Source: Verrucomicrobiota bacterium
GTDB lineage: Bacteria; Verrucomicrobiota; Verrucomicrobiia; Methylacidiphilales; Verrucolacustridaceae
Reading direction: 5' to 3'
Assembly: GCA_009927835.1 (NCBI GenBank)
Contig: RFMG01000161.1
Coordinates: 1-36,172, forward strand
Length of the DNA stretch: 36,172 nucleotides
Below, one piece after another: positions 13,791 through 36,172 of the stretch; position 1 is the first letter of the stretch; each line of letters opens with the position of its first letter. Both the position numbers and the translations under genes were made by a program. The notes below the pieces were generated by a model. The model was not told the DNA's origin and did not search any database. It saw nothing but the letters and a program-made list of their open reading frames with translations.

Positions 13791-13875
13791 GCGTCTCCTA
13801 TCGGTTTCCACCCTCCCAGCCCGCAGTGCAAGCCTGATGTTTCCCCCGCCGTGATGTTTCGGGTACAAAGGAAAG

Positions 13876-15175: not shown

Positions 15176-15188
15176 CGTGGGTTTCGAT

Positions 15189-16216: not shown

Positions 16217-17262
16217 TGGGAGACATGCCTCACGGCCTTGATTCGGCTTCGGCTGGCCCTCGTCAACGGCAGATCCTGGGTGGATCGCCAGGAGGCCAAT
16301 CCCAACAACCACCCCGTCAAGGTCAGGGATGCACCCAACAGCACATGGGCGGTCGCGATCTCAGGCAGTCGACCCGTCCAAAGGATCGAAATGCCCAGAA
16401 GCATTTGGGAGACGGCCAGAAAGACCCAAGCCACCATTCCACGGGACCACCATGACGGGGTCATCGCCGAACGCACGCTCCAGATGGCACCCCAAAGAAT
16501 TCCAACGGCTGCCAAAATTCCAAGGGTGCGGTGCAGAATCTGGCAAAGGATGAGGGCTCCCGTCGTCTCCGGCCAGTGCAGTTGGGTGGCCCGAACCTGG
16601 TTGATCTTGCCGAGAACGGCTGAATCCCAAAAAGCGGGCATCCACTCCCCATAAATTTTTGGAAAGTCCGGAACCGATAAAAAGCCAGGTCCCTCATGCC
16701 TCATGAAAGCGCCGAGAATGGTTTGGGTGAAAACAACCGCGGTCATGAACCAGACCATTTTGGCACGGCTTCGGGCAAGATCATCTCCGTGACCCGGATT
16801 TTGCCAGAACCGGGACAAGACCAGCGCCAAACTTCCGGCCACCAGCAGGTACCCCTGCGCGAGACACCCGTGCAGGAGACCCAGCACCGAGGATGCCTGA
16901 AGTACCCTCTGCCCGCCCAAAATCCCCTGCAACACCACCAGGACCGAGGCCGCAAGTGCCAGACGGCGGGCCCATCCCTGGGGCTGGGTGAAAAACACCC
17001 AGGCCGTGACAAACAGCGTGATCAACCCAACTCCTGAGGCAACCAAACGGTGCGAGTGTTCCAAAAAAATAAACACGGAGGATGTCATGCTGGACCATGG
17101 ATAAACGAACAAGTTGTGGCCGAACGTTCCCGGCCAATCCGGAACGGCCATCCCCGCAACACGGGTGGTCACCTGCCCGCCCAGGGTGATCAAAAAAAGG
17201 ATCGCCCCGACCAGGAAGCAGGCCGCACGAAAGAGACCTCGGGACGGGGCGCTCGCCTCCAT
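16213..17262 (-). CDS. ctaA: Heme A synthase (CtaA/COX15)
   Basis: CtaA oxidises a methyl group of heme O to a formyl group, giving heme A. This 349-aa protein has about eight hydrophobic helices in two pseudo-repeats. Expected heme-binding histidines are seen in FLEHSHRLVAS and VLGLLHGCLAQ in the first half and in RATQLHWPETTGALILCQILHRTLG in the second. The segment GGQVTTRVAGMAVPDWPGTFG near the N-terminus is characteristic of COX15 proteins. The ATG directly abuts the cox1 stop with no gap, and its own stop overlaps ctaB. It is therefore part of the cox2-cox1-ctaA-ctaB-cox3 unit. Confidence 0.96.
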   Translation of the reverse strand: MEASAPSRGLFRAACFLVGAILFLITLGGQVTTRVAGMAVPDWPGTFGHNLFVYPWSSMTSSVFIFLEHSHRLVASGVGLITLFVTAWVFFTQPQGWARRLALAASVLVVLQGILGGQRVLQASSVLGLLHGCLAQGYLLVAGSLALVLSRFWQNPGHGDDLARSRAKMVWFMTAVVFTQTILGAFMRHEGPGFLSVPDFPKIYGEWMPAFWDSAVLGKINQVRATQLHWPETTGALILCQILHRTLGILAAVGILWGAIWSVRSAMTPSWWSRGMVAWVFLAVSQMLLGISILWTGRLPEIATAHVLLGASLTLTGWLLGLASWRSTQDLPLTRASRSRIKAVRHVSQ

Positions 17263-19038: not shown

Positions 19039-19050
19039 GGTTGGATCTCC

Positions 19051-19917
19051 TTATCTTTGATTCAAAACAACGGGGGTCCCGGAGGTTGCGCCGGAGACAG
19101 CGGGTGCGGGGGCTTTCCCCTTCGCCCAGGATTCGTACTCGGCGACGGGGACAACGGACAGCTTGCCGAACATTTTGTAGTGGCCCTGTCCACACAGCTG
19201 GTTGCAGGCCAACTGAAACTTCCCCGTCGCCTCCGCTTTCAGCCAGACAAAGTCGTACACACGTCCGGGCACCATGTCCTGGTAGAGGCGAAACTCGGGC
19301 ACATAAAACGCGTGGATGACATCCTTGGATCCCAGATACAGACGGATCGGTCGGTTGACCGGGAATACGATCTCCCCGTACGTCGTGAAATCGTCCAACC
19401 CGTCCTGATCCGCAGGATCCACCCCGAATGGATTTTCCTTGCTGATTTTTTTGGCGTCCATTTTGGCCAATTTCCCGTCCGCACCGGGATAACGCACATT
19501 CCAACCGAACTGCTCCCCCACAACCGCCACTGGCAGGGCGTCCGCCGGGGGCGTTTGACGCCTCATCCGGCTCCACTCCTCGTTGCCGTAAATGGCCAAT
19601 CCAAGGAAGATAAATACCGGGATCGTGGTCCAAACCACCTCCAAGGTGTTGTTTCCGTGGCTGTGGATGGCCGGAACACCCGGACGCGCACGATATTTTA
19701 CCAAAAAGAAAGCCATGACTGAAAAGACACCGATGAAGGTAACGCCGGTCAAAAGGAGGATCACATAAAAGATAAAATCGATGGCATGCCCGAACATGTT
19801 CACGTTTCGAGGCAACCACCAAACACTGGTTTCCCGGATCTCCGCTTGGGCCGAGGACAAGCCCAAAAGGATCAGGGTTATGAAGATGGAAAGAGGACGC
19901 CCGAAAAGCTTATGCAT
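19051..19917 (-). CDS. ctaC: Cytochrome c oxidase subunit II (CuA)
   Basis: Subunit II takes electrons from cytochrome c at the dinuclear CuA site. After a signal peptide (MHKLFGRPLSIFITLILLGLSSAQA) and two transmembrane helices (including FIFYVILLLTGVTFIGVFSVMAF), the periplasmic cupredoxin domain carries DVIHAFYVPEF and CNQLCGQGHYKMFG, the full C-x3-C-x3-H-x2-M CuA set. EVVWTTIPVFIFLGLA is the conserved second-helix segment. There is no fused cytochrome c domain, so electrons must come from a separate c-type heme protein. The track start at 20109 adds 64 residues without signal features. I prefer ATG 19917, with GGAG 10 nt upstream. It is the first gene of the cox operon and is divergent from actA. 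Confidence 0.96.
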   Translation of the reverse strand: MHKLFGRPLSIFITLILLGLSSAQAEIRETSVWWLPRNVNMFGHAIDFIFYVILLLTGVTFIGVFSVMAFFLVKYRARPGVPAIHSHGNNTLEVVWTTIPVFIFLGLAIYGNEEWSRMRRQTPPADALPVAVVGEQFGWNVRYPGADGKLAKMDAKKISKENPFGVDPADQDGLDDFTTYGEIVFPVNRPIRLYLGSKDVIHAFYVPEFRLYQDMVPGRVYDFVWLKAEATGKFQLACNQLCGQGHYKMFGKLSVVPVAEYESWAKGKAPAPAVSGATSGTPVVLNQR

Positions 19918-20160
19918 GGGGAGCAGTCTCCAATGAATTTTCCACTTTTCAACCCCTTCCCCCGCTTTTTGCCTTGGGCAGCTCACATCCGCCCGTCGAA
20001 TCGGGAAAGTCAGAGGGAAAAAAGCCTTAAACAAAACTAATAAGCCCTGGCTTTGGGTTAATACTTCTAATGCATCCTTGATGAGACACAAAAGAGTCTC
20101 CATTTTCACCTATGCACCATCGTGAGCACGATATTTTGAAAAGTTTCCGCTGATCCCCCT
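19918..20160. promoter_or_regulatory. Divergent control region between cox and ACIII operons
   Basis: This 243-nt gap must carry promoters for both the cox operon (minus) and the ACIII operon (plus), so a common regulator could act here. It contains AT-rich patches (AAACAAAACTAATAAG, GGGTTAATACTTCTAATG) but no convincing -35/-10 pair. It also has two dyads: GAGAC/GTCTC (20083-20100) and ATCGTG-AG-CACGAT (20119-20132). No coding sequence is supported. Confidence 0.45.
20119..20132. promoter_or_regulatory. Perfect dyad, candidate operator upstream of actA
   Basis: ATCGTG and CACGAT form a perfect 6-bp inverted repeat around AG, 28 nt before the actA ATG. Its position and symmetry fit a dimeric regulator site, but it could be chance. 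No regulator is assigned. Confidence 0.3.
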
Positions 20161-20814
20161 ATGGCCAACATATTTCCACGCTTCAGCAACTGGTTGCCGA
20201 TCAAAATTTTGGTCTGCATCACGATTATTGCGGCCAGCGTGGTTTCGGGAATGGCCTACTACTTCACCCCAAAATACACCCGGGTCGGTTATCAGCCCAC
20301 ACAACCTGTAGCCTTTGATCACTCGCTGCATGTGAATCAACTCGGAATGGATTGTCGCTACTGCCACACGGGTGTGGAAAAATCCTCCCACTCCAATGTG
20401 CCCCCCACCCAGACCTGCATGAACTGCCACACGCAGATCAAATCCCAAAGCCCCAAGCTCGCGGCGGTGCGGGAATCATGGAAATCCGGCAACCCCGTTC
20501 CTTGGGTCCGAATCCATAAGGCCCCTGATTACGTCTATTTCAATCACGCCGTTCACGTGAATCGCGGGGTCAGTTGCGTTGCCTGCCACGGCAATGTCAA
20601 CCATATGGAGGTGGTCTACCATGCGAAACCTCACAGCATGGGTTGGTGCCTCGAATGCCACCGCGCTCCGGAAAATTATCTTCGCCCGCTGGATCAGGTC
20701 ACCAATCTGGATTGGGAACCGCCCACAGGAACCACCCAGCGCGAGCTTGGCGAAAAATTTGTCAAAGAGTGGAATGTCAAGCCGCCCGTAAGTTGCAGCG
20801 GGTGCCACCGATAA
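20161..20814 (+). CDS. actA: ACIII subunit ActA, membrane-anchored pentaheme cytochrome c
   Basis: This 217-aa protein starts with one hydrophobic anchor (ILVCITIIAASVVSGMAYYF). It then has five CxxCH heme sites: CRYCH, CMNCH, CVACH, CLECH and CSGCH. That count and the order at the head of an actABCDEF operon identify ActA of alternative complex III, the quinol oxidase that replaces cytochrome bc1 in many bacteria. Its hemes carry electrons from the iron-sulfur subunit toward ActE and the oxidase on the periplasmic side. No Shine-Dalgarno sequence precedes the ATG. The actB ATG begins 3 nt after its stop. Confidence 0.95.
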   Translation: MANIFPRFSNWLPIKILVCITIIAASVVSGMAYYFTPKYTRVGYQPTQPVAFDHSLHVNQLGMDCRYCHTGVEKSSHSNVPPTQTCMNCHTQIKSQSPKLAAVRESWKSGNPVPWVRIHKAPDYVYFNHAVHVNRGVSCVACHGNVNHMEVVYHAKPHSMGWCLECHRAPENYLRPLDQVTNLDWEPPTGTTQRELGEKFVKEWNVKPPVSCSGCHR

Positions 20815-20817
20815 AAC

Positions 20818-23800
20818 ATGAAACGCACTCTTCTTCATCCCTCCTCCTCCCAGGGCCGCACCTACTGGCGGAGCCTTGGTGAATACGCCAAGACCCCGGA
20901 TTTTGAGGAGTGGTTGCACCGTGAGTTTCCTGCCGGAGCGGCGGAGTGGGACAATGATCCACTCTCCAGGCGAAGTTTTATTCGGCTCATGGGGGCCTCG
21001 CTGGCTCTTGCCGGGCTAAGCCTCTCGGGTTGCCGACGACCCGAAGCTCACCTCGTGCCCTTCACGCAATCTCCCGAATGGGTGGTGCCTGGAAAAAAAA
21101 TGTCCTTTGCCACGGCCCAACCCCGGCGCCGAGGTGCCGTGCCCCTTCTGGCGACAACCTTTGACGGCCGCCCGATCAAGATGGAGGGCAATCCCCTCCA
21201 CCCTCTCAGCCAAGGCTCGAGCGATAACCATGCCCAAGCCTCGATCCTTGACCTTTATGACCCGGCCCGGCGCCAACACCTCACTAGGAACGGCAAAAAG
21301 GCCACGGCGAGCGAATGGGAGGAGGAGATCAACCGGATTCGGGCCGAGTCCCTCTCCACTTCCGGATCCTCCTTGGCAATCCTGGCGGATGAGCAACTCT
21401 CCCCCACCCGCGAGAGGCTGCGCGGCGAACTTCAGCGTCAGTTTCCCCAATCCACTTGGGCCACATACGAACCCCTCTCCCCCGGACGGGATCTGGAGGC
21501 TTCCGCCCTCGTTTTTGGGGACAATACCGAATTCCGTCCCAATCTTTCGGCCGCCACTGCCATTCTCTCCGTCGACTGCGATTTTCTGGGATCGGAGGAG
21601 GGAGATTTAAACGACACGCGGGGTTTTGCCTCCGGTCGCCGGACCCGCAAGCCCTCCGATCCAACCAATCGTCTTTATGTGGTCGAGCCCAGGTTCTCCC
21701 TCACCGGCACCATGGCGGATCACCGTCTTCGCCTTCGCCCGAGCGCGATCGGGGCTTTCCTGCTTGAACTCGCCCGTCAAATCCGTGCCGCCAAGCCTGG
21801 CGCCGAACTCAACACGCTCCTCAGCCAATCCCCCGACCTTCCCCTTCCGGAGGGAGTGGATCCGGCCTGGATTCGGGAGTGTGCCGTGGATCTGGTTTCC
21901 CGCGGCAACCACTCCCTTCTGCTCGTCGGTCGCCGACTTCCCGTCTCACTTCAGGCCCTGGCTCTCGCGTTAAACTCCGCGCTCGGCTCGGTCGGCACGA
22001 CCCTTCTTGTGCAGCCCCGCCGTGCCACCACCTCAACCACAATTTCACAACTCGCTGAAAAAATCAGGGGTGGAACCGTTCGCACGTTGATCATCCTGGG
22101 GGGTGACCCGGTTTACAACGCGCCGGCCGACCTGAACTGGGGGGCCCTGCAATCCTCCATTCCAAATACCCTGCATCTGTCCCCGCTCTCCAATGCCACC
22201 TCCAAACAGTCGACCTGGTCGATCCCGGGAACCCATTATCTCGAGTCTTGGGGGGACGGATTGGCCATCGATGGCTCCTACCTGTCGATCCAACCCATGA
22301 TCCAGCCCCTCTGGAACGGACAAAGTCAGCTCCAACTCCTCTCCCGCATTCTTGCTCTCCCCAGCCCGATCGGCCCCTCCCTCATCCGTGAAACATTTGC
22401 CCAACGCACGGGTCTAACTGCTGAAAAGCTGGAGCAGGGCTGGAACGATTTTGTCCGCGAGGGGTTTTGGATAACCCCATCCGCCGCGCCAACACCCCGA
22501 CCCGCAAATCTCAATGGCGTCGCAGGCCTCCTTTCCCAGGTCGCAAACTCTCCCGCAGAGGACCCTTCCTCCTTGGAGGCACTCTTCATCCAGTCGGCCG
22601 CCGTGGATGACGGGCGCTACGCCAATAATGGATGGATGCAGGAGTGGCCGGACCCGATGACCAAACTCACCTGGGATAATGCAATTCTTCTTTCGCCGGA
22701 AACCGCACGGACGCTCGGCCTGAAAAACGATATCATAAAAGGGATCCTTGTGGCCGATGTGGTGCAGGCCACTTTGGCCGGGCGGTCGATCGACGCACCT
22801 GTGGTCATTGCGCCCGGGCATGCCAATTTCTGCGCGAGTCTCCCTCTTGGTTATGGACAGGAATGGGGTGGTCCGATTGCGAAAGGCGCGGGGTTTGACG
22901 CTTATCGTCTGCGAGCCTCCTCGACGGACTATCATGCCCCCGGACTTCAACTGAAACGCACGGGTCGGACACAGCAACTCGCCATCACCCAGGAACACCA
23001 GGTGATGGAGGGTCGCGATCTCGTCCGTGAGGCATCCGTAGATGAGTTTAAGGAAAATCCTGCGTGGGCAAAAACCGTCGGAATGGATGCCCACATTCCG
23101 CCCAATCAAACCTTTTACCCGAATCCGAAATTGGACGGCCAGCACCAGTGGGCGATGGTGGTCGATCTGTCCACCTGCACCGGCTGCAATGCCTGCGTGA
23201 CCGCGTGCACCGCGGAAAACAATGTCCCGATCGTCGGCAAAGACCAGGTCATGAAGGGGCGTGAGATGCACTGGATCAGGGTGGATCGTTACTACACGGG
23301 AGAACCCGAGGCGCCCGAGTCGGTCTCGCAACCCATCGCCTGCATGCAGTGCGAAAATGCCCCATGCGAAACCGTCTGCCCGGTCAATGCGACCGTTCAC
23401 AACGAGGAGGGGTTGAACGTGATGGCCTACAATCGCTGCATCGGCACGCGGTACTGCGCAAACAATTGCCCCTACAAAGTAAGGCGTTTCAACTTCTTCG
23501 ATTACAATCAACGCGCCCTCGACAAGCTGTATTGGGGACCCGTTGCCCCCAAGGGAACCGAGGAAACAATCAAGTTGCAGAAAAATCCGAATGTCACGGT
23601 CCGGATGCGCGGTGTCATGGAAAAGTGCACCTTCTGCGTCCAGAGAATCGAGGACGCAAAGATCGCCGCACGGGTCCGGGCTCGCGACTCCGCCGACCTC
23701 AGGATTCCAACCGGAACGCTCAAGACCGCCTGCCAGCAGGCCTGCCCTGCGGAGGCGATCGTCTTTGGGGACCTGCTCGACGAATCCTCCGAGGTGAAAA

Positions 23801-23973
23801 AGTTGCGGGAACTCCCCCAGAACTACTCCCTTCTGGAATACCTGAATGTTCGTCCCCGGTTGACCTATTTGGGCAGGATACGCAACCCCAACCCAGCCAT
23901 GCCGGGCGCCCGCACCCACTACGCCTCCACCCACGGAGCCTCGTCTCACGCCAAACAAGGGAGCCACGAATGA
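20818..23973 (+). CDS. actB: ACIII subunit ActB, iron-sulfur/molybdopterin-like fusion
   Basis: This 1051-aa protein combines a molybdopterin-oxidoreductase-like half with a C-terminal four-cluster ferredoxin half. The N-terminus has a twin-arginine motif [16 protein letters not shown] (about 51-66) followed by a lipobox-like LSLSGC with Cys72, suggesting Tat export and possibly lipid anchoring. Cluster motifs are [35 protein letters not shown] and CTFC...CQQAC. In known ACIII the Mo-like domain carries no cofactor and the ferredoxin part holds three 4Fe-4S and one 3Fe-4S cluster that lead electrons away from the quinol site in ActC. The stop overlaps the actC ATG by 4 nt. Length fits the family. 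Confidence 0.95.
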
Positions 23974-25433
23974 GAGCGGACAACCCCTCCTCCCAAGCTG
24001 CCTTTGCAAAGGCCGCAGCCTACTTGGAGCGCCAACCCCTCGTTTCCAACCATCGTCCCCTTTCCTGGATCACCCAGCACGTCTGCCAAATTGTGGAGGA
24101 GCGCGCCCCGAAGTGGTGGTGGATTCTCACCTTTCTTTTCGGGGGGATGGCCACCTTGGTTCCGGCGATGTTGACCTACCTCGTATCCACCGGAGTCGGG
24201 GTGTGGGGGCTGAATGTTCCCGTTTGCTGGGCGTGGGACATCACCAACTTCGTGTTCTGGATCGGAATCGGCCACGCGGGAACCCTCATCTCCGCGATTC
24301 TTTTTCTCACCCGCCAAAAGTGGCGCACCTCGATCAATCGCTCGGCAGAGGCGATGACCATTTTCGCCGTGATCTGCGCCGGAATTTTTCCCGCTTTTCA
24401 CGTGGGACGGGTGTGGATGGCGTGGTTCCTGGCCCCCATTCCCAATGCCAATGCCATCTGGCAGAATTTTCGCAGCCCGCTCCTCTGGGACGTTTTTGCC
24501 GTATCCACCTATTTCACCGTCTCCCTCATCTTCTGGTATTTGGGCCTGATCCCCGACCTTGCTTCCCTGCGGGATCGCGCCACCACCCGGCTTCGTCAAA
24601 TGGCATACGGTCTGCTGGCCTTGGGTTGGCGGGGCTCCAACCGTCACTGGACCCATTACGAGAAAACGTATCTCATTCTCGCGGGAATTTCGACCCCGCT
24701 CGTTTTGTCCGTGCACAGTGTCGTGTCTTTCGATTTTGCCACTTCCATCGTTCCCGGATGGCACACCACCATCTTTCCACCGTACTTTGTGGCGGGCGCC
24801 ATCTTTGGCGGTTTCGCTATGGTTCTCACCCTTCTCATTCCCTTTCGCGAGATCTATCACCTTCACGACCTCGTCACCGACAAGCACATCGACAACATGT
24901 GCAAGATCATCCTGCTCACCGGGTCCCTGGTCGGATACGCGTACTCGATGGAGTTCTTTATCGCCTGGTACAGCGGCAACCCTTTTGAAATCTACGCCTT
25001 CACAAACCGTGCCTTTGGTCCCTACTGGTGGGCGTACTGGGCCATGATCACGTGCAACGTCGCTGCTCCCCAGCTTTTCTGGTTCAAGTATTGCCGCCAA
25101 AACCCCTGGGTCGTCCTGGCCATCGTGATGTTTCCCAACACGGGCATGTGGTTCGAAAGGTTTGTCATCATCGTCACGTCGATCCACCGCGATTTCCTCC
25201 CCTCCTCCTGGGGTTACTTCTCCCCGACTTGGGTCGACATCAGCCTCTTTATCGGAACCATCGGTCTCTTTGTTTTCCTTTTCCTCCTTTTCGTCCGTTT
25301 CCTTCCGATCATTAACATGTTTGAGGTGAAGGGCATCACGCCGCAGGCCGATCCCCACGCCCACGACGCGGAGGAGAATCATGCCCACTCTCGGCAGACC
25401 CCCACCCACACACCTTCGCAGGTGCACGCATGA
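23970..25433 (+). CDS. actC: ACIII subunit ActC, NrfD-like quinol-binding membrane protein
   Basis: The track merges this gene with an upstream out-of-gene stretch starting at 23349. The ATG at 23970 ([12 protein letters not shown]) overlaps the actB stop by 4 nt, follows GGGAG and gives 487 aa. The protein is a polytopic NrfD/PsrC-family subunit. Segments such as [34 protein letters not shown] and the helix beginning [19 protein letters not shown] are typical of ActC. In known ACIII structures ActC binds quinol near the periplasmic side and sits under ActB. The His-rich C-terminal tail ([19 protein letters not shown]) is not expected to be part of the core. Confidence 0.94.
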
Positions 25434-26017
25434 TTCAGCCCTCCTCATCTCTATTCGGTTTGGGGGCGGAGTTCTCCTCCGCCGCTGCTCTTCTTGAAGC
25501 TGCCAAAAGGATCCATGCCCACGGTTTTCGCAAATGGGATGTGTACTCCCCTTTCCCGATCCATGGAATGGATCACGCCATGGGTTTCAAACGCTCCCGT
25601 GTTTCCCTTTTTTCACTCCTGGGCGGTTGCACCGGACTGACGGTGGCTTTTGTGCTGATCTACTACACCTCCGCCATCAACTATCCCCTGATCGTGCAAG
25701 GCAAACCCTACTTCGCGCTTGAACCCTCCCTGCCGATCTTCTTTGAACTAACGATTCTTCTGACCGCCTTTGGAACGGTTCTCGGACTGCTCCTTCTGAC
25801 TCTCCTCCCGCGCCTTCATCATCCCGTCTTCAACTGGGATCGCTTCCAAAAAGCCACCGATGACGGCTTCTTTCTCGTCCTGGAATCGACGGATCCCCGG
25901 TTCGAATCGGCTTCGTCGAGGCAACTGCTGGAGCAGATCGGGGGCCTTCACATTACGGAAATATTCCAGGATCCTGAGGAAACCCCCAACCCGGTTCGGC
26001 AGGAGACAACCGCATGA
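25430..26017 (+). CDS. actD: ACIII subunit ActD (DUF3341)
   Basis: This 195-aa protein belongs to the DUF3341/ActD family. An N-terminal cytosolic-type domain ([32 protein letters not shown]) is followed by two transmembrane helices ([17 protein letters not shown] and the helix around [17 protein letters not shown]). The C-terminal domain ([21 protein letters not shown]) resembles the N-terminal part of the family's ferredoxin-like fold. ActD is a structural subunit of alternative complex III. Its ATG overlaps actC and its stop overlaps actE, each by 4 nt. The start is therefore well fixed. Confidence 0.94.
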
Positions 26018-26635
26018 GGGGCCTGATCCGCACTTTCCTCGCCGTGTTTGGAGCCGTGACGGTCACAATCATCGCGATCGCCGGATTCCGGGGGGACTTC
26101 ACGCAGCGAACCCCCATCGAAATCTTCCCTGACATGGATCGTCAACCCAAATACAAGTCGCAAACCCCATCCCACCCTTTTCACGGAGGGCAGAGTCGAC
26201 CGTGTGCCTCCCTACGGCACGATTCCCTTCCAACTCAATACCGATCAACCTTACCGGCTTACCGGGAAGATGGGGAACATGTGGGGCACGGGGATCCCGG
26301 TCACCGTGGATGAAAAGCTCCTTGCGCGTGGTCAGGAGCGATACCAGATCAACTGTCAGGTTTGCCATGGCGCCACGGGCGCGGGAAATGGCATCACCGC
26401 CCAGTACGGACTTGTCGGAGCCGCCAGCTATCACCTCGACAAGTACAGGGAGATGGCCGACGGGGAAATCTTTAACACCATCACCCACGGAAAGGGACAA
26501 ATGGGCCCCTACCACCACATCGATGTCAATGATCGCTGGGCGATCATCGCCTATATTCGGGCCCTCCAGTTGGCGCAAAATGCCCCATCCAAACTTCTCC
26601 CCCCCGAGGTTGCGAAAGCCTCCACCAAGCCATGA
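26014..26635 (+). CDS. actE: ACIII subunit ActE, monoheme cytochrome c, with apparent frameshift
   Basis: The reading frame from ATG 26014 gives a membrane anchor (FLAVFGAVTVTIIAIAG), then the ActE-typical DMDRQPKYKSQTPS. It then loses similarity and reads into a shadow. From 26174 in the next frame the sequence continues TLFTEGRVDRVPPYGT and the heme motif CQVCHGATGAGNG, with a likely Met ligand in GKGQMGPYHH, open to 26635. Deleting one C within TCCCACCC (26170-26177) restores one ORF of 206 aa reading QTPSTLFTEGRVDR. ActE relays electrons from ActA to the oxidase. Either the extra C is an assembly error or the gene is broken. Overlaps with actD and actF (4 nt each) are intact. No lipobox Cys is seen at the anchor, although ActE is a lipoprotein in some species. 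Confidence 0.88.
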
Positions 26636-27876
26636 GCCATAGCCCCTCTCCTTTGCCCTCCGCAGAGAAACTTCGGCTTGAGAGCCTTGGTATCCTGCCG
26701 GTGCTTTTCCCGTTGATCGGCGTGATCGGCCTTGTCTCCGCCTTCGTGTGGGGACTCATGACAAACCCGATGCAACTCGCATTTTCCTATCTCTTCGCCT
26801 TCACCGTCGGGTTCACCATCTGCGCGGGAGCTCTTTTTTGGACCTTGCTTCATCACGCTCTCGATGCCGACTGGTCAGTCCTGATGCGCAGAATTCTCGA
26901 ATCCATCGCCTCCTGTTTTCCCGTTCTCCTTCTTCTCTTCCTCCCGGTCATCTTTCTTTTTTCCAGGGAGCTATGGCACTGGATGACCACCGATCTTTCG
27001 GAAGATCCGCTTCTCGCATGGAAACGACCCTTCCTGAACGAGCCTTTCTTTTATCTTCGATGCGGATTTTACCTTCTCTTTTTTTCCGTCGCCGGAATGC
27101 TCTACCGAAATCTCTCCATGAGACAGGACTTGGATGGGGACCCCAGAATCACCCTCCGCCTCCGTCATACCGCCTATGGGTTCATCCCCCTCTTTGTCCT
27201 GTGCCTGACCTTCGCCGGATTTGATTGGCTGATGTCGCTGGATCATCACTGGTACTCCACCATGTGGGGCGTCTACCTGTTTGCCGGTTGTGCCCAATCC
27301 TCGATGGCGATTCTGATCCTGGTCACGAATGGTCTGGTCCGCACGGGGCACCTCAAGGGTCTTTTCACCGTGGAACATAACCACATCATGGGAATGCTCC
27401 TTTTCGCCTTCACCACATTCTGGGGTTACATCTCCTTCAGCCAATATTTCCTCCAATGGTATGCGAATATCCCCGAGGAAACATGGTTCTTCGTTTACCG
27501 CAACACGGGGAGTTGGTACGCGTACTCGATTTTCCTCGTGGTGGGCCATTTCTTCATCCCCTTCATCCTTCTTCTCACCCAGCCGGCCAAGAGAACTCCA
27601 TGGCGAATCTGCGCCACGGCCGCCTGGGTCGTGTTGATGCACTGCGTCGACATCTACTGGATCATTATGCCCAATCTCCAACTCCAGCAGTCCCGTCACG
27701 CCGGTCATGCGGCCGCCACCACCGGATTTCACCCGCACCTCCTCGATCTTCTTGCCCTGGTCGGGGTCCTCGGAGTCCTTGGCCACACGGTTCTTTGGCT
27801 TCTTTCCCGCGGTTCAATCTTTCCTGCAAGAGACCCTCGCCTCCGCGAGAGCTTGGCGGTGACCAACTGGTTATGA
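26632..27876 (+). CDS. actF: ACIII subunit ActF, NrfD-like membrane protein
   Basis: This 414-aa polytopic membrane protein is the second NrfD-like subunit of alternative complex III, a divergent paralogue of ActC. Typical segments are TFAGFDWLMSLDHHWYSTMWGVY, NHIMGMLLFAFTTFWGYISFSQYFLQWYANIPEET and the helix following RNTGSWYAYS. It has about ten hydrophobic helices. In known structures ActF packs against ActC and may conduct protons rather than bind quinol. The ATG overlaps actE and the stop overlaps the following 157-aa gene, each by 4 nt. Confidence 0.95.
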   Translation: MSHSPSPLPSAEKLRLESLGILPVLFPLIGVIGLVSAFVWGLMTNPMQLAFSYLFAFTVGFTICAGALFWTLLHHALDADWSVLMRRILESIASCFPVLLLLFLPVIFLFSRELWHWMTTDLSEDPLLAWKRPFLNEPFFYLRCGFYLLFFSVAGMLYRNLSMRQDLDGDPRITLRLRHTAYGFIPLFVLCLTFAGFDWLMSLDHHWYSTMWGVYLFAGCAQSSMAILILVTNGLVRTGHLKGLFTVEHNHIMGMLLFAFTTFWGYISFSQYFLQWYANIPEETWFFVYRNTGSWYAYSIFLVVGHFFIPFILLLTQPAKRTPWRICATAAWVVLMHCVDIYWIIMPNLQLQQSRHAGHAAATTGFHPHLLDLLALVGVLGVLGHTVLWLLSRGSIFPARDPRLRESLAVTNWL

Positions 27877-28346
27877 GCGAATCCTCCCACTCCCCCCATC
27901 CAAAGCGGCACCCCTATCCTTCGGGACTTTGGCTTGCAGCGGGATTCCTTGGTCTTGCGAGCCTCGCTCTCCTCCTGCGCCCCCTAGGGATCAGTACCGC
28001 CACCCTTACCCAATCGGCTGCAAAAGTCCGTCTGGAGAAATTGTCAAAACTGCGGACCGAGCAGGACGCTGCCTCTTCCACCTACGGATGGGTGGACAAG
28101 TCGAAAGGTGTCGCTCACATCCCGATCGCGCAGGCCATGGAGCTGATCGTTCCCCAGCTTCGTTCCAATCCACCTCACCCCGCATATCCCATCACAACGA
28201 TCCAACCATCCGCCATCTCCGCGGCGGGTTCTCCTCTTTACCCTGAACTCCCTCCAGTCGACCCAGCTGTTGTATCAGCTGCCTTGAAGGCCGACGGAGG
28301 TGCTGCCTCTGCCACCCCTCCTTCCACGTCCCCAACAAAAAAATAG
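27873..28346 (+). CDS. 157-aa membrane-anchored protein of respiratory operons
   Basis: The track hides this inside a longer ORF starting at 27456. The ATG at 27873 overlaps the actF stop by 4 nt and starts MSESSHSPHPKRHPYP. A single transmembrane helix (LWLAAGFLGLASLALLL) leads to a periplasmic part with YGWVDKSKGVAHIPIAQAMELIV. That YGWVD-x-x-x-GV-x-x-IP-x-x-x-AM pattern resembles, from memory, a small uncharacterised protein often encoded near SCO and cytochrome oxidase genes; a database search would be needed to confirm this. The C-terminal 50 residues are Pro/Ala/Ser rich. Function is unknown; an assembly or linker role between ACIII and an oxidase is inference. The CcoN-like gene starts 2 nt after its stop. 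Confidence 0.72.
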   Translation: MSESSHSPHPKRHPYPSGLWLAAGFLGLASLALLLRPLGISTATLTQSAAKVRLEKLSKLRTEQDAASSTYGWVDKSKGVAHIPIAQAMELIVPQLRSNPPHPAYPITTIQPSAISAAGSPLYPELPPVDPAVVSAALKADGGAASATPPSTSPTKK

Positions 28347-28348
28347 AC

Positions 28349-29779
28349 ATGAACATCCCTTCCAGCTCCAAGACAAACTTATCCGTGGGAATCCTTTTGG
28401 TCGGCTCGGTCAGCTGGGCACTTCTCGGAGCTGGCCTCCAGGTCCTCGCGACCCTGCAACTTCTGGTTCCGTCGCTGGCATATCTCGTTCCCATTCCTTG
28501 GATCGGATATGGCCATATCGCTCCCCTGGTCTCTTTTCTGTTTACCTACGGGTGGATCGCCTCCGGTTTTCTCGGCGTCCTTCTGATATTAATCCCCAGA
28601 ATTTCCGGGATCCTGTCTCCCTCCGGGAGACTTCTTACGGGGGCTGCAATCGTATGGCAATTCGCCGTCCTTGTGGGAATGGCGGAGATTCTCTGGTCCG
28701 GGTCCACAGGACTGATCTCCCTGCCCTTTTCACGTTCGGTGACGGCTCTCTTCCTCTTGTCTTACCTGATTCTGGGATCGGCCCTGTCACGCGGATTGGG
28801 AGGTTCCTGGAAAAGTGGGCCTCTTCTTCCCCGCCTTTATCTCTTGGGCGCTCTTCTTGCTCTTCCCTTGGGATTGGGCACTGCCGAAGTCCTTCTCCGG
28901 GGGGGGCTTGCCCCGGGTGCACTGCAGATCATCATGCAGTTTGTCTGGCACTCCTTTCTGTATCATCTCTGGCTCACCCCCTTGGCTCTCGTTTTTCTGT
29001 TCCAGCTTCTTCCCGCCCTCACAGGTCGCCCGGCGGGAAGTCTCTCACTCGGACTACTTTCCTGGATTGCGACAATCGGTTTTGGAGGATGGGTGGGAAA
29101 CAGTTTGGCAAGTGAGGGTCCCATGCCTTCTTGGCTTCAAAGTGCCGGGGTTATAGCCACCCTCCTTCTTGGGGTTGCTGTCCTGGGGAACACGCTTCTC
29201 CTCAAACCGCTTTTGGACGGGAAATGGGAGGAGTGCCGGCGTCAAGTCTCCCTCCGTTTTTTTGCCGTCGGTTTTTGGTCTTACTTTGCCTCGTATGCTT
29301 GGTTGGCTTTTCTTGCGCTGCCCGGTGTTCGCCAAACAACAACCTTCACCATGGTCGGCCAAGCAACTCAAGCTCTTCTTATTTTCTCCTTTTATGGAAA
29401 TGTCCTTGCGGGTGCCGTCTATTCTCTTCTGCCCGCCTCCCGTTCCATCGGATGGCCGTCTCATCCCGCCCTTACCCTCCACTTTTGGTTCACCACTTTG
29501 GGCGCGGCCCTCATCGCTTTGGCGTACGCACTGGCCGGGATCTTCCAGGGCCTGGCTCTGAATGACCCGGGAGTGCCGATGTCCACGATCTCCAGCTACC
29601 TCCGCCCTTTCCTCGTGGTGGCTTTGGCGGGTCAGCTCTTCTGGTGGCTGGGACAGCTTGCATTTTCCTCCATTTTCTTTGCCAGCCTTCTGAAGCTTTT
29701 CCCATCTGTCGCCCCCGTTGCCATTTTTCCCCCGGATCGGGAGGCTACAAAGCAGTCTCTCACCCCCGCCCACCCATAA
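28349..29779 (+). CDS. CcoN-like membrane protein lacking most heme and copper ligands
   Basis: This 476-aa polytopic protein resembles subunit I of cbb3 oxidases. HFWFTTLGAALIALAYALAGIFQGLALND aligns with the conserved CcoN HFW-x-ATIG...GI-x-QG helix pair, and FSFYGNVLAGAVYSLLP with the preceding helix. The expected ligands are mostly gone. The segment aligned with RPLHT reads APLVS, and the segment aligned with GHVH reads GQAT. No double His for CuB is found; only six His occur, at 56, 201, 206, 372, 378 and 474. H201 could match one CuB ligand. It is therefore unlikely to reduce O2. It lies between the 157-aa protein and CcoO/CcoP-like cytochromes, as if a cbb3 module kept its scaffold but lost its active site. 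The alignment is by eye. Confidence 0.72.
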   Translation: MNIPSSSKTNLSVGILLVGSVSWALLGAGLQVLATLQLLVPSLAYLVPIPWIGYGHIAPLVSFLFTYGWIASGFLGVLLILIPRISGILSPSGRLLTGAAIVWQFAVLVGMAEILWSGSTGLISLPFSRSVTALFLLSYLILGSALSRGLGGSWKSGPLLPRLYLLGALLALPLGLGTAEVLLRGGLAPGALQIIMQFVWHSFLYHLWLTPLALVFLFQLLPALTGRPAGSLSLGLLSWIATIGFGGWVGNSLASEGPMPSWLQSAGVIATLLLGVAVLGNTLLLKPLLDGKWEECRRQVSLRFFAVGFWSYFASYAWLAFLALPGVRQTTTFTMVGQATQALLIFSFYGNVLAGAVYSLLPASRSIGWPSHPALTLHFWFTTLGAALIALAYALAGIFQGLALNDPGVPMSTISSYLRPFLVVALAGQLFWWLGQLAFSSIFFASLLKLFPSVAPVAIFPPDREATKQSLTPAHP

Positions 29780-29783
29780 ACTG

Positions 29784-30386
29784 ATGAAATCCTCCCATGC
29801 CCTCATCTTGGTCTTTCTCCTGCTGCTCTTGACCTGGGCCGGACAGGTTGCCCTGGGATTCTTTCAAGTCGGCAGAATGGAGCCGATTCTGGATGAGGAA
29901 ACAAACTATCCGAAACCCCCTGCAGCCTCAGGCCTCGCCCAGACAGGAGCCCGCGTTTTTGCGAGTGAGGGTTGTCTGGAATGCCACTCTCTTTCCGCCC
30001 GGGGACCCACCGGCTCTGCCGATTTAACGAGAGGATGGGGCCCAAGACGGAGCGTCCCTCGCGACTATTTGTTCCGTGAACCCGCCCTCATCGGCCTGTC
30101 CAGGGTGGGTTCCGATCTTTCCAATATTGGCCTCCGGGTCCCGGAAACGAAGGATTTGATGCTGCATCTCTACAACCCCCGCCAACGAAACGCAAAGTCC
30201 AACTGCCCACCTCATCCATGGCTGTTCGACACACGCTTGGCAGGCACAGGGATCGAAAATGAGGCCCTGCCTCTGCCATCCCGGGACTGGCAGCAACTGC
30301 TGCCCACGTACAAAGCCAAGGCTCTTGTTGCCTATCTCCAGTCGCTGCGAACCGACTATTCCCTTCCCGAGGCACCTCTCAAATGA
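29784..30386 (+). CDS. CcoO-like monoheme cytochrome c with Cys at the expected Met ligand
   Basis: I start at ATG 29784 (MKSSHALILVFL), 4 nt after the preceding stop, rather than the track's 29718 inside the upstream gene, giving 200 aa. After one transmembrane helix, GARVFASEGCLECHSL carries the heme site (CLECH, 64-68). The later segments REPALIGLSRVGSDLSNIG and HLYNPRQRNAKSN parallel the CcoO core (GxKRTGPDL and HLYxPR...SNMP). Where CcoO has the axial Met in SNMPxYPWL, this protein has SNCPPHPWLF, with Cys141 and His144 nearby. The heme could be Cys- or His-ligated or five-coordinate. It is presumably the electron-transfer partner of the CcoN-like protein. The stop overlaps the next gene by 4 nt. 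Confidence 0.75.
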   Translation: MKSSHALILVFLLLLLTWAGQVALGFFQVGRMEPILDEETNYPKPPAASGLAQTGARVFASEGCLECHSLSARGPTGSADLTRGWGPRRSVPRDYLFREPALIGLSRVGSDLSNIGLRVPETKDLMLHLYNPRQRNAKSNCPPHPWLFDTRLAGTGIENEALPLPSRDWQQLLPTYKAKALVAYLQSLRTDYSLPEAPLK

Positions 30387-31021
30387 ACCCTCCTGAACTA
30401 CCCTCTCTTTCCCAAGCCCCAGCCGAACGTCATGCGCCCGTTCCCGGATGGCTCCTGGGCGTGGGGATCATCCTTTCGTTTTGGGCGGGGGGTTATCTGT
30501 TCTTCTACAGCGGCGGGTTTCGCGGGGACGTCTATGATCCGGGCCAAATAACCTGGGGACCTGTCAATACCGGACCCGTGGTTCCTCCGGATCCAAAAGT
30601 GATCGGTAAGCGACTCTTCACGGCGAACTGTGCGCAGTGCCACCAAGCCACTGGATTGGGGCAGGCTGGAGTCTACCCCCCCTTGGCAGGTTCCGAGTGG
30701 GTCACAGGCTCAAAAAACAGGCTGATTTCCATTTTACACAAGGGAATCGCAGGGCCGATCAATGTGAAGGGCCTGCTCTACAACAACAACATGCCTGCCT
30801 GGGGAGATGGCGCTCCGGTTCCCCTAAAAGATGAACAGATTTCAGCCATCCTCACCTATATTCGGAGTGATTGGGGAAATAGCGCCGACCCCGTCACAAC
30901 CGAGGAGGTGGCGGCAAAGCGCAAGGAGCTTGCCGGAATGAACAATCCTTGGAGTGAGGCGGGGTTGCTTGCCCTTCCGGATCAATCCGCCACTCCCCCT
31001 GCTCCTCCTGTCAAAAAATAA
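30383..31021 (+). CDS. CcoP-like monoheme cytochrome c
   Basis: This 212-aa protein has one N-terminal transmembrane helix (WLLGVGIILSFWAGGYLFFY) and a class I cytochrome c domain. The heme motif is CAQCHQATGLGQAGVYPPLAGS and the Met ligand lies in NNNMPAWGD. CcoP of cbb3 oxidases carries two hemes; only one is present here, so it is CcoP-like at most. The C-terminus is Pro/Ala rich. It is the last gene of the ACIII-linked run, with a 4-nt overlap to the CcoO-like gene and only 1 nt between its stop and the convergent DUF2723 gene. It may carry electrons between ACIII, the CcoN/CcoO-like pair and the A-type oxidase. Confidence 0.8.
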   Translation: MNPPELPSLSQAPAERHAPVPGWLLGVGIILSFWAGGYLFFYSGGFRGDVYDPGQITWGPVNTGPVVPPDPKVIGKRLFTANCAQCHQATGLGQAGVYPPLAGSEWVTGSKNRLISILHKGIAGPINVKGLLYNNNMPAWGDGAPVPLKDEQISAILTYIRSDWGNSADPVTTEEVAAKRKELAGMNNPWSEAGLLALPDQSATPPAPPVKK

Positions 31022-31022
31022 G

Positions 31023-33872
31023 TCACGGTCCTGTCTGGGGGGGTTTCAACGAGGATTGAAACTCAGGTTCCCCTTGGATTTTTTGGAACATTCCTTCCGA
31101 CGCAATTTTTTCCCTCATGGGCAAACCTCCCAATCGAATGGCATCTTTCAAGTACCGGTAAAACTCGGACCGGTTGCCGATCGCCATGGAGAACTTTGCC
31201 ATTCCGAGCTTCAAATCAGCATCCTCAGGGGTTAACTTCTCCAGCCGTTTGCCGTATTCGATCGCCGCAGGCACACGGTTCTGGACGGCGTAGTAGTTCA
31301 CAATATCCCGAAGGATCTCGGAATTGGTGGAAAAGAGTGAGGCACCCTCAACCACGAAAGGATCGGCCTTGGTAAGATTTCCTTCCTCCGAATACTTGCC
31401 AAGGAGCTGCTGGAACCGTTTCGGCTCTTTCGGCGATTCCCTCCACTGTTTTTCCAAATCGGTGATTTCCTTCCCCAGGGCAATTCGCCTTTCACAGTTC
31501 GCCAAGAGCATCGTCAGCAAACTGTTATTGGGATCCGCCTTCGACGCCTTCTCCAAAATATCCCGAAGGTCCCCAGCCCTTTTCTGTTTCATCAGAAGGT
31601 CGGAGAAATTATTCAGCGTCTCCGTGTTTCCCGGCCAAAGTTCCAGCGCCTGTCGATAGGCTTTTTCGGCGGCCTCGGGCATCTGCCTCCACTTGTAGAT
31701 GTTTCCACCGGTATTTCTCAATTTGGAAAAGGATCGCTGCGCATCGATGTCGTTCTCAAATCGCGGGTTCTTCTTCAGGTGATCGATATATTCCCTCCAA
31801 TACTTCATGTCCCCTTCCACCTGTTCGGGAGACAACCGTGGAACAGGATCCCTTTTGATCTCGTAACACAATCCGTGCGGCACAGCATTCGGATACGACC
31901 ACTCCATGGGGAAACTCTCTTCCACAAAGAAGTGGCGCTGGTCCTTGTTTCGTTGCCAGATCCACTCTCCCACCATCGAATTGAGCACGGTGGGATCGGA
32001 GTTGGGATCGGGAGCGGACAGATCCTGTTGTCTTCGTTCGATCGCCGCCTGATAGATGGCCATGATGTCCTCCTGCCGGGGCAGGACGAGGGGCGCCTGG
32101 GGGTAGTGTTTGTCTCGCCCCAGCCACTGATCCACCCATCCGCGGGGTGCAGGTCGCTCGGACGAGTAGTGGTTCCGGATGTACTGGTTGTAAAAAGCAT
32201 CGGCCAAGGCGTTCTGAGTGATGATGTACAGATCGCGCCGGTCGAAATTGGGGTCCCGCTTGAACTTCTTCGGCTCAAAACTTTCCGAAAGAATCATGTA
32301 GGTGGGAACAAACCGACCGGGATCGGTTCCGCCATAAACGAAACTGTCTTTGGGAAGATCCGCGAGCATATCCCTTCCATACATCCACCCAAACCAGTGC
32401 TCCCTTTGGCTGCAAAACGTCAAGTTTTGCCGGAAACTGAAGACACTTAATATCAGGGACAACAGAGTCGATACAGCCACGGCCGATGAAATGCTCTTCA
32501 GCCAGCGGTCGACCACCAATCCCGAACCGAAGCCTGCCAACAAGACGAAGAAGGCGTGGGAGTATCCCAGGTAAGGCATCTCGAGGAGCCACGCCGCCTC
32601 ATCGGCGCCTGCCTGGTCAAAGGCCGGTTGAAGGAACCCGGCCAAAAGAAAACCGATGGCGCTGATCTGGATCCATGATCTCACCGGCGGCGGCAAACCA
32701 CCCATAAATGCCACCGCCGCGACCAAGGCGAGGATGGAAAGAGGAGTAAAGTTCTCCACGATCTTTCTCCAATACAGCTGGGCGAACTTTCCCAAAGTTT
32801 CCCGGAAGGAGGGTGGTTTCGGCGTCCCGGGAGGCGGCTCAGGGGGGTTCAGCAGTTCCTGGGGGGCTGCCCCCATGACACGACCCACGGTTTTCAAAAG
32901 TTGATCGGACAGCTTTCCGGAGTACTGGCTGCGGTTGATGGCGTAAAAAAAACCCTCCTTGGTGCTCGTAAAACCCCAATTCATCGGAGGATTGGTCGAG
33001 GAGGCCATCGGCATATACGCATAAGGAGAGAGTCCAATCGCCACTGCAGCCAAAAGCAAAAGTCCTGTTCTCCAGTTGGGCAGACTTCGTTTGACCAACA
33101 TCCAGATGACCAGCGCCACGCCCACCGAGTAAAGGAAGCGGACGGAGGAGTGCCAAGTGGGCTGCTCACCGGAAATACTCCCAAACCCCCAATAGACCAA
33201 GGCGGCAGCGATGCAGAGATACAGCATCCCCTCCGCCAAAAGATCCCTCCGGCGCAATACCATCACCATGACCGGTAGCGGTGCCATCGAGATCATCAGG
33301 TGGTGATCACTCATCCCCAAAGAGAAGAAAAAGGCCGACCAAGCCAACCCATTCGTCCACTCGGGAGCTCTGAGCCAGCGGTACAGCACCCAGACATAAA
33401 ACATCACCATCAGGGAGTGCAGGCCATAAACCTCGGCAATGACCGCCTGGGACCACATGGAGACACTGAATGCCAAGGCGATCGCCCACCCCGCACCCAG
33501 GATCTGGGCCACAACATCCCGTACCCCAGCCCAACGCAGGGAGTTGGATAGAATCAGCGCCACAATTCCAATCGCAATTGCCGTGCAAAAGCCGGAAAAA
33601 AGATTCACCTCCCACGCACCGTTTCCGATCGGGAATAAGGTGAAGAGATGGGAAAAGATGGTCCAAAGCGGGTAGCCGGTCGGATGAGGCACCCCGACAT
33701 GAACCGAAGCGGTGAGAAACTCACCCGAATCCAGCAGACCAACATTGGGCTGGGTCGTCAGGAAATAGACCACTTGGGAAACCAGCCAGGCGAACCCCGC
33801 AGCGATCCAATCTTTACGATCGAAGGGCCAGTCCCAGCGCATCCGGGCAGGTGCAGCTTGTGTCTGGTTCAT
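31023..33872 (-). CDS. DUF2723 membrane protein with C-terminal TPR region (TMEM260-like)
   Basis: This protein of about 949 aa has an N-terminal DUF2723 domain: VVYFLTTQPNVGLLDSGEFLTASVHVGVPHPTGYPLW carries the Asp-Ser-Gly-Glu and HPTGYPL signatures. About ten or more hydrophobic helices follow to roughly residue 510. A soluble region comes next, ending in tetratricopeptide-like repeats (AAEKAYRQALELWPGNTETLNNFSDLL, DILEKASKADPNNSLLTMLLANCERR). Human TMEM260, with the same domain, is an O-mannosyltransferase, and the fold is GT-C-like; bacterial members are uncharacterised. The track start at 34067 overlaps the upstream gene widely. ATG 33872 overlaps that gene's stop by 4 nt. Its neighbour makes polyprenol-phosphate sugar, which would be the matching donor. 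Confidence 0.82.
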   Translation of the reverse strand: MNQTQAAPARMRWDWPFDRKDWIAAGFAWLVSQVVYFLTTQPNVGLLDSGEFLTASVHVGVPHPTGYPLWTIFSHLFTLFPIGNGAWEVNLFSGFCTAIAIGIVALILSNSLRWAGVRDVVAQILGAGWAIALAFSVSMWSQAVIAEVYGLHSLMVMFYVWVLYRWLRAPEWTNGLAWSAFFFSLGMSDHHLMISMAPLPVMVMVLRRRDLLAEGMLYLCIAAALVYWGFGSISGEQPTWHSSVRFLYSVGVALVIWMLVKRSLPNWRTGLLLLAAVAIGLSPYAYMPMASSTNPPMNWGFTSTKEGFFYAINRSQYSGKLSDQLLKTVGRVMGAAPQELLNPPEPPPGTPKPPSFRETLGKFAQLYWRKIVENFTPLSILALVAAVAFMGGLPPPVRSWIQISAIGFLLAGFLQPAFDQAGADEAAWLLEMPYLGYSHAFFVLLAGFGSGLVVDRWLKSISSAVAVSTLLSLILSVFSFRQNLTFCSQREHWFGWMYGRDMLADLPKDSFVYGGTDPGRFVPTYMILSESFEPKKFKRDPNFDRRDLYIITQNALADAFYNQYIRNHYSSERPAPRGWVDQWLGRDKHYPQAPLVLPRQEDIMAIYQAAIERRQQDLSAPDPNSDPTVLNSMVGEWIWQRNKDQRHFFVEESFPMEWSYPNAVPHGLCYEIKRDPVPRLSPEQVEGDMKYWREYIDHLKKNPRFENDIDAQRSFSKLRNTGGNIYKWRQMPEAAEKAYRQALELWPGNTETLNNFSDLLMKQKRAGDLRDILEKASKADPNNSLLTMLLANCERRIALGKEITDLEKQWRESPKEPKRFQQLLGKYSEEGNLTKADPFVVEGASLFSTNSEILRDIVNYYAVQNRVPAAIEYGKRLEKLTPEDADLKLGMAKFSMAIGNRSEFYRYLKDAIRLGGLPMREKIASEGMFQKIQGEPEFQSSLKPPQTGP

Positions 33873-36172
33873 GGAAAGATCCTCCGAACGGCCAGCTGAA
33901 AAACCCGTTTGGCCGCCTCGAGGGCAATGTTGGCCGACATCTTGGAATTCCCCTCCCGACGCTCTGTGAAAACAATCGGAACCTCCTGAATCTTGAATCC
34001 GGACTGCCACGCGAAGAAATGAAGCTCCACCTGAAACCCGTAGCCTTGAGAAGTGAACTGCTCCCAATTCAATCCCTCCAAAACCCGCCGCCGGATGGCC
34101 TTAAAACCACTCGTGGGATCGGTCATCGGCAGGCCCGTCAGGGTCCTGGCATACCAACCGCCAAAGGTGCTGATCCATAGCCGGCTCTGGGGCCAGTTGA
34201 GGATCCGGATTCCATTCAGGTAACGCGATCCAACGGCCAGATCTGCCCCTTCCCCGATTGCCGTCAATAACCGAGGGACATCCGCCGGATCATGGGAAAG
34301 ATCCGCATCCATCTCGACCACGCTGTCGTAACCTTTCTCCAAGGCCCATTGGAAAGCGGCCCGATAGGCAGATCCCAGTCCAGCCTTCCCGGGGCGTTCC
34401 ATTATATGCAACCGCTTCTTAAAATCCGGGTGACTCTTGACTTTAGCCGCCGTCCCATCGGGAGAACCATCGTCCACCACCAGCACCTCCACGCCCGGAG
34501 CTTTCGTCAAAATCTCATCTAAAGCGGTCTGAATCATCTCCGCCTCGTTGTAGGTGGGAAGGATCACCAACGACTTGGAAGGACGATCGGTCCTGGCACT
34601 CTTTTCTTTGGCACTCTTCGCGGTCTTCCGCTCTTGAGCTTGTTCCTTCTCAAACTCCAAATCCTCACCCTCCCACCAATTCCTCCATGGAGCAGGGCAT
34701 GGCGCAAACCTCAGGTAGGCCGACCCACCGAGAACCAACCCCCAGCTGAGGAGCCCCAATCCCAACGAGAGCGAAACCCATGCGGGAGGGGAAAAAACAA
34801 AGCTTACTTCCCTCACCCCCTCCCCGATCCGGACCCCGGTGAAAGCCACCGCCACCCTTCGCAGGTCGCTCTTCACTCCATCCACCCAAACCTGCCAATC
34901 CGGATGCCACGCCTGCGTTAACATCAGCCAACCCGACTGCCCTTGTGGTAAAATCTTCCAGACATTGGGTCCCTCGTGTTGGCAGCTGGATGCATCGAGC
35001 AACCGGAAGGGCTCACCCTCCCGGTCACGAAAGGCTCCGGTCAACTCCACCTCCCCATTCTGGGGATTCATGATACCCGCCAGTGCCGGATCATTCATCT
35101 CCACGCCCGGAATCTCCACCGGCAGGAAGTATAATCGGACCAGACCCAGATCCGCGGTCGCATAATCGTATTTGGCCGGCGGAATCGAAACATAGTTCTT
35201 GGCGAAAAAGCCCGGGGAGAGACAGTTCGGATTCTCGAGAACCGTGAAGAATGGGTTTTCAAAAACCGTGGGGTACTGCTGCTTGAAAGCAGTTTGGAGC
35301 TGTTCGGGCGTGTCCACATCCTTGCGATCCATCAAAATGTAACGAACCCCTTGAAGACTGAGGGAAACCCTCATCAGGTCGGCGTTGGCTCCCCCGGCAT
35401 CTTGCAGGGCCCGCGTGCCTCTGGACATGAAGTAGGCTTGAAACGCCTCGGTGGAAATAGGGCGGCCGGTCAACTGCGGGAGTCGCATGTAAAAATAACG
35501 TCCCGAAAGCGGCAAGACGGATCCGGCCTTGGGTTGGCTTTTCAGGAATGCGGAGGCCTCGAGAAATCCCTCAAATGTCCCTGCCTCCAGTCCGGGTTTG
35601 AAAAATTTCACATAATAGGGACTGAAATCGATGGCTGCGACCAGCAGGACCACGGGTGGAAGCCATGCCATGCTTTTGCCTGGGCAAAAACGCGTCACAG
35701 CGAGTGCCCCGACCCCGGCCAGACAAAAAGATCCTCCCACCTGCCAGAAAGACCAGGGGGCCCGCACCGTACCTGCCAAGGGGATCAACTCAAAGAGACG
35801 GAATCCTGGAACCAGCAAATAGACCGCCAGAGCGATGGCGAACGTGGGCCATTTCCATCGCCCGGCAGGCCAAATCAGCGACAGAACCGCGATCGGGCCT
35901 AAGGCGCTGATCCAAAAAATGGGCAAAACCCAATCCTGGATCCCTTGGGCGGATTTCAGAAACTCTCCCATTCCCCCCAGTCCGTTCCTCGGACCCAGAC
36001 TGAACCATTGGACGAGCAGAAAGAGCGCGATAAAGAGCTTAAGGATTCCATCCAACGGGGATTCCGAACCACGACGGCGAATTTCCAACGCCACGGCCGT
36101 GGCCACCACCACCACCAACCCCAGGTAAAATCCCCCCTCGTCCACCGTGAAGTTGCCCGGCATCCCCTGAAG
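33869..36172 (-). CDS. YfhO-like membrane domain fused to Dpm1-type polyprenol-phosphate mannosyltransferase, 5' partial
   Basis: At least 767 residues are visible and the frame stays open at the right edge (LQG before the first Met), so the true start lies outside. The N-terminal 500 residues have several membrane helices and a YfhO-like extracytoplasmic module (AWHPDWQVWVDGVKSDLRRVAVAF). A charged linker (KEQAQERKTAKSAKEKSA) leads to a GT2 domain of the Dpm1 class: LVILPTYNEAEMIQTAL, VVDDGSPDGTA, EMDADLSHDPADVPRLL and DPTSGFKAIRR. Dpm1 moves mannose from GDP-mannose to a polyprenol phosphate on the cytoplasmic face. The fused membrane part could receive or flip the lipid-linked sugar; this is inference. 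The stop overlaps the DUF2723 gene by 4 nt. Confidence 0.85.
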   Translation of the reverse strand, partial: LQGMPGNFTVDEGGFYLGLVVVVATAVALEIRRRGSESPLDGILKLFIALFLLVQWFSLGPRNGLGGMGEFLKSAQGIQDWVLPIFWISALGPIAVLSLIWPAGRWKWPTFAIALAVYLLVPGFRLFELIPLAGTVRAPWSFWQVGGSFCLAGVGALAVTRFCPGKSMAWLPPVVLLVAAIDFSPYYVKFFKPGLEAGTFEGFLEASAFLKSQPKAGSVLPLSGRYFYMRLPQLTGRPISTEAFQAYFMSRGTRALQDAGGANADLMRVSLSLQGVRYILMDRKDVDTPEQLQTAFKQQYPTVFENPFFTVLENPNCLSPGFFAKNYVSIPPAKYDYATADLGLVRLYFLPVEIPGVEMNDPALAGIMNPQNGEVELTGAFRDREGEPFRLLDASSCQHEGPNVWKILPQGQSGWLMLTQAWHPDWQVWVDGVKSDLRRVAVAFTGVRIGEGVREVSFVFSPPAWVSLSLGLGLLSWGLVLGGSAYLRFAPCPAPWRNWWEGEDLEFEKEQAQERKTAKSAKEKSARTDRPSKSLVILPTYNEAEMIQTALDEILTKAPGVEVLVVDDGSPDGTAAKVKSHPDFKKRLHIMERPGKAGLGSAYRAAFQWALEKGYDSVVEMDADLSHDPADVPRLLTAIGEGADLAVGSRYLNGIRILNWPQSRLWISTFGGWYARTLTGLPMTDPTSGFKAIRRRVLEGLNWEQFTSQGYGFQVELHFFAWQSGFKIQEVPIVFTERREGNSKMSANIALEAAKRVFQLAVRRIFP

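Follow-up and report, generated by a model that had tools for sequence, protein, structure and literature searches.

The window analysed here is the whole of contig C154 (36,172 nt), part of a 1.73-Mb, 96%-complete assembly of a freshwater Verrucomicrobia bacterium whose nearest relatives are genomes from metagenomes that bear the label Verrucomicrobia, in several cases subdivision 6. Two minus-strand genes, P0002 and P0001, fill positions 31023-36172 (Table 1). The 4-nt overlap between them that was described in the earlier note is borne out: in the context CC ATGA AC, the TGA stop of P0002 and the ATG start of P0001 together make up the four shared bases, and the same overlap was read directly from the coordinates of seven loci outside the window. 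The ORF list also offers a TTG-started 1014-aa reading of P0001, which is not the likely start; the ATG in the overlap is preferred. Elsewhere in the window, ORF translations at 14522-31021 read as a cytochrome oxidase and a respiratory cluster of several subunits that includes cytochromes c; these genes converge on the two described here and are partly retained beside them across the genus. A lycopene cyclase-like protein at 13056-13949 falls just under the Pfam cut-off (25.1 vs 27 bits).

Table 1. Features of the two genes at the right end of the window.
Feature	Coordinates	Strand	Details
P0002: YfhO-like membrane region and Dpm1-type GT2 synthase	33869..36172	-	767 aa here, open at contig end
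YfhO (PF09586) C-terminal signature in the fusion	34781..34939	-	E 7.7e-9, 34.9 bits, cut-off 28.5
GT2 / DPM-synthase domain	33872..34576	-	PfDPMS E 1.3e-29; profile E 2.5e-37
DADLSH motif, P0002 residues 622-627	34292..34309	-	aligned to PfDPMS DADLQH 89-94; roles in PMC5526996
ATGA, stop/start overlap of P0002 and P0001	33869..33872	-	4 nt
P0001: TMEM260-like (GT117-type) membrane transferase, C-terminal TPRs	31023..33872	-	949 aa
PF11028 TMEM260-like domain	33246..33731	-	E 6e-28, 98.2 bits vs cut-off 24.2
DSGE motif (D48, E51), putative GT-C catalytic acids	33720..33731	-	aligned with DSGE of human TMEM260
TPR region	31134..31721	-	profile match; helical repeats in model

P0002 had been read as a YfhO-Dpm1 fusion coupled to a DUF2723-TPR protein, with its real start beyond the right edge, and an assembly join had been raised as a possible objection. 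The coupled fusion is real. In addition to PF09586, P0002 matches the GT2 family PF00535 (E 4e-28), and complete fusions of about 1,020-1,068 aa were called as ORFs in ten same-genus genomes, most of them away from contig ends; in these relatives the fusion adjoins TMEM260-like proteins 75-85% identical to P0001. Since ten genomes carry it whole, the fusion was not made by assembly: the contig end cuts it and did not create it. By comparison with the full-length relatives, P0002 is short of some 263-264 N-terminal residues that lie beyond the contig end (263 by the L048 copy, the first compared).

The fusion varies among close relatives. In G005 and G012 the YfhO-GT2 fusion is a paralogue (41-42% identical), and a separate free GT2 directly abuts TMEM260; at 77% identity, this free gene is the GT2 closest to the window's domain. 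Fused domains cluster in a GT2 tree that is unrooted and has long branches, and the fused GT2 may have arisen by one fusion with later splitting or by two fusions. The TMEM260-like gene of G005 is broken over three overlapping frames (L064/L140; C213 6723-9266), through sequencing error or as a pseudogene. In G016, of the same genus, YfhO and TMEM260 are kept and the fusion ORF (L037/L062, 787 aa) has lost its GT2, which provides a natural test for takeover by another synthase.

The best solved match of the GT2 domain is the Pyrococcus furiosus DPM synthase (PfDPMS, 5mlz), at 1e-29 versus 6e-8 for ArnC, and human DPM1 likewise has DADLSH. Equivalents of PfDPMS residues E12, D39, D89, D91, H94, R117, R131, S135, F177, R202 and K208, which bind metal, donor and Dol-P phosphate (PMC5526996), are kept, the corresponding P0002 residues including E543, D568, D622, D624, H627, R650, R664, S668, R738 and K744. 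The differences among the residues checked are Q93 to S and K178 to Q, and the neighbouring G122 is I. With most of the Pyrococcus active-site residues retained, the site appears by sequence to be that of a DPM synthase, in agreement with the Dpm1-type assignment of the earlier note, and mannose is the likely sugar.

A relationship between the DUF2723 region of P0001 and TMEM260 had also been proposed, and it is upheld by the PF11028 score (Table 1) and by a match to human TMEM260 (PDB 9rql) with E 1e-18; elsewhere in the membrane part, two more stretches give short, weak alignments to 9rql. D48 and E51, assigned to the first periplasmic loop, are invariant in 34 sequences, whose source genomes carry the labels Verrucomicrobia, Kiritimatiellae, Lentisphaerae and, in one case, Bacteroidetes. 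An acidic position after TM1 is the catalytic or metal position in GT-C enzymes (PMC7801869). Because both residues are invariant and align with the human DSGE, the active-site comparison suggested earlier speaks against a loss of the GT-C acids. The AlphaFold2 model of P0001 (pLDDT 85.8, pTM 0.80) retrieved mostly TPR superhelices from the PDB; amid these was human OST-A (8pn9_A, E 1.3e-4, TM 0.31/0.42), and 9rql was not among the best 50 matches listed. Human TMEM260 is classified as GT117 and modifies proteins, at IPT domains (PMC11292533); no functional account of a bacterial TMEM260-like protein was found in the literature searched.

The association of GT2 and TMEM260 extends across the phylum. 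Among 115 phylum genomes at least 90% complete, and with a GT2 threshold of E <= 1e-30, 38 have both TMEM260-like and GT2 proteins, two have TMEM260 only, four GT2 only and 71 neither. GT2 is present in 38/40 TMEM260-positive versus 4/75 TMEM260-negative genomes (Fisher p 2e-23, a statistic that ignores kinship) and in 17 of the 19 TMEM260-bearing families; TMEM260 occurs without it in G026 and G065, the match in the latter being weak. YfhO is far less tied to TMEM260 (21 both, 19 TMEM260 only, 14 YfhO only, 61 neither), and the synthase is therefore primarily the partner of TMEM260, with YfhO as a frequent extra.

Outside the genus, GT2 is encoded by a gene of its own (about 245-290 aa) that lies upstream of TMEM260. 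The two lie within a few hundred bases of each other at G033, G041, G047, G050, G054 (where they overlap by 4 nt), G056, G058, L063, L084 and L086, and about 1 kb apart at L083, L085 and G115. At L143 4872-14000 of G115, the DPM-type GT2 is separated by a UbiA-family gene from two TMEM260-like genes in tandem. G063, which belongs to a distant family, has YfhO, GT2 and TMEM260 as three separate genes in direct succession, the YfhO stop overlapping the likely GT2 ATG by 8 nt and the likely TMEM260 ATG lying ~35 nt past GT2; this row is an unfused form of the window's arrangement.

We give slightly better than even chances to the interpretation that the two genes form an inner-membrane glycosylation module, in which a YfhO-type protein tethers a polyprenol-phosphate-mannose synthase that feeds a GT117-like transferase. 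In the first step, suggested by the retained active-site residues, the GT2 domain would work on the cytoplasmic side, kept at the membrane through its fusion to the polytopic YfhO-type protein, and move mannose from GDP-mannose to polyprenyl phosphate. The lipid-sugar would then be flipped, perhaps by the one GtrA-family protein of the genome, an unlinked candidate (G000:C112) and the sole GtrA-type one. Homology and the intact acids point to a third step on the periplasmic side, where the TMEM260-like GT-C enzyme would transfer the sugar, most likely to Ser/Thr of exported proteins, its TPRs perhaps recognising the acceptor. Against the two-gene module stand the G016 fusion without GT2, the TMEM260 genes of G026 and G065 without GT2, two PMT_2 proteins (PF13231) encoded in the genome that could be users of the same donor, and the search of the genome for the IPT/TIG domain targeted by human TMEM260, which detected none. 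From the compact O-mannosylation system that the earlier note envisaged, the fusion, the DPM-like site, the intact acids and the co-inheritance stand, and a bacterial O-mannosylation reading is plausible on these sequence grounds; the system may not be complete in two genes, the flippase candidate being on another contig.

The YfhO part would at the least anchor the synthase, or else be a second GT-C transferase that draws on the same donor. The "membrane module" proposed earlier is present as a multi-helix region in the N-terminal part of P0002, where YfhO is the sole Pfam family found. The PF09586 match spans only 53 positions (profile 775-827), near the C-terminal end of the profile, and full-length relatives of the fusion may score below the cut-off. 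YfhO proteins are GT-C glycosyltransferases for teichoic acids in Gram-positive bacteria (PMC8035078), so the module is more than generic and two transferases may share one synthase. An AlphaFold model built for the whole fusion from the L048 copy and an alignment of 14 rows failed in the YfhO part (pLDDT 45.5, pTM 0.32), for which we therefore make no structural claim. The strongest alternative, to which we assign a real though minority probability, is that YfhO only anchors or stabilises the synthase, like domain 1 of Mycobacterium tuberculosis Ppm1, a protein that joins a membrane domain to a DPM synthase and that is split in M. smegmatis into two ORFs whose products interact (PMC3485146). 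The weak co-occurrence of YfhO with TMEM260 fits such an anchor, as do the free GT2 relatives, in which no extra membrane domain is evident; the catalytic nature of the YfhO family elsewhere argues for an enzyme, and so does the glutamate after the first helix (NQELL), which may stand in place of the canonical YfhO catalytic Asp of the first outer loop and is conserved in all rows reaching that position and in unfused kin.

Teichoic acid glycosylation by YfhO (PMC8035078) also lends some weight to a different acceptor, namely an envelope glycan or lipid (LPS core, O-antigen or exopolysaccharide) decorated as by the Gram-positive CsbB/GtcA/YfhO system. In several same-genus genomes, moreover, a GT2-methyltransferase, an epimerase, a C-methyltransferase and a DegT-type aminotransferase are encoded beyond the fusion. 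We nevertheless regard this acceptor as doubtful, because the tight evolutionary partner of GT2 is TMEM260 (38/40) and not YfhO (21/40), and the characterised TMEM260 modifies proteins (PMC11292533); protein is the acceptor that we infer. As a separate observation, a second, distinct GT2 (31-32% identical) lies upstream of the fusion beside sugar-modifying genes at L034, L036, L038 and L062, and at L038 it is fused to a methyltransferase domain.

Less probable still is a synthase product other than polyprenyl-phosphate mannose, with glucose, galactose or an N-acetylhexosamine, for instance, as the sugar. The NCBIfam models for AglJ, PpgS and dolichyl-P-hexose transferase match about equally, below cut-off, which would leave room for another sugar; however, the equivalents of H94, R131 and S135 are retained, whereas GtrB has Asp for the DPMS His94 and no clear counterpart of R131 or S135 (PMC5526996). 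The genome also encodes, on a different contig, a GDP-mannose pyrophosphorylase (NTP_transferase and ManC_GMP_beta-helix), which favours mannose but, being present in almost all genomes of the phylum (110 of 115), says nothing on the association. An assembly artefact or chance adjacency as the source of the fusion or pairing, prompted by the position of the fusion at a contig end, can practically be discounted given the ten complete same-genus fusions and the two genomes with a 41%-identical paralogous one.

Among known systems, M. tuberculosis Ppm1 (Rv2051c) with Pmt is the nearest precedent for the fusion: a membrane protein is fused N-terminally to a DPM synthase whose product is used by extracytoplasmic GT-C enzymes, and the parts are fused or separate operon genes depending on the genome (PMC3485146). 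Its membrane domain is of the apolipoprotein N-acyltransferase type, which Pfam did not find in the N-terminal part of P0002, and its transferase is a GT39 PMT, whereas here they are YfhO-like and GT117-like. CsbB/GtcA/YfhO is the nearest precedent for YfhO, combining a GT-A lipid-sugar synthase with a YfhO GT-C transferase (here in one gene) and a GtrA-type flippase candidate. In contrast to that system, the synthase here is of the DPMS type and forms one protein with YfhO, the flippase candidate is unlinked, the Pfam YfhO match is confined to a C-terminal stretch, and there is a coupling to TMEM260. Human TMEM260 (GT117) with DPM1 shares PF11028, DSGE, the other membrane stretches aligned with 9rql and the need for a polyprenyl-phosphate-mannose synthase; the present protein differs in being bacterial, in its longer TPR tail, in its genetic coupling to the synthase and in the IPT domains, of which none were found. 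PfDPMS shares the catalytic residues and has its own C-terminal membrane domain, whereas P0002 ends just past GT2 and has its membrane part in the N-terminal YfhO. The arrangement described here joins a DPM-type synthase to a YfhO-type protein and couples the pair with a GT117-like transferase.

A broader and more tentative reading, which we put forward as possible though rather unlikely, is a Verrucomicrobiota-wide protein O-mannosylation pathway, kin to that of TMEM260 in animals. The TMEM260-like transferases would have a DPM synthase dedicated to them and, within the genus, the YfhO-fused synthase would supply two different GT-C transferases. TMEM260-like proteins are widespread in Verrucomicrobiota and present in Bacteroides, and the near one-to-one occurrence of a DPM-type synthase with a TMEM260-like gene in the phylum suggests a concrete donor for these proteins. 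On this basis some Verrucomicrobiota would be expected to export molecules that bear mannose, and the bacterial TMEM260-like proteins may serve as simpler homologues for the study of the human disease enzyme.
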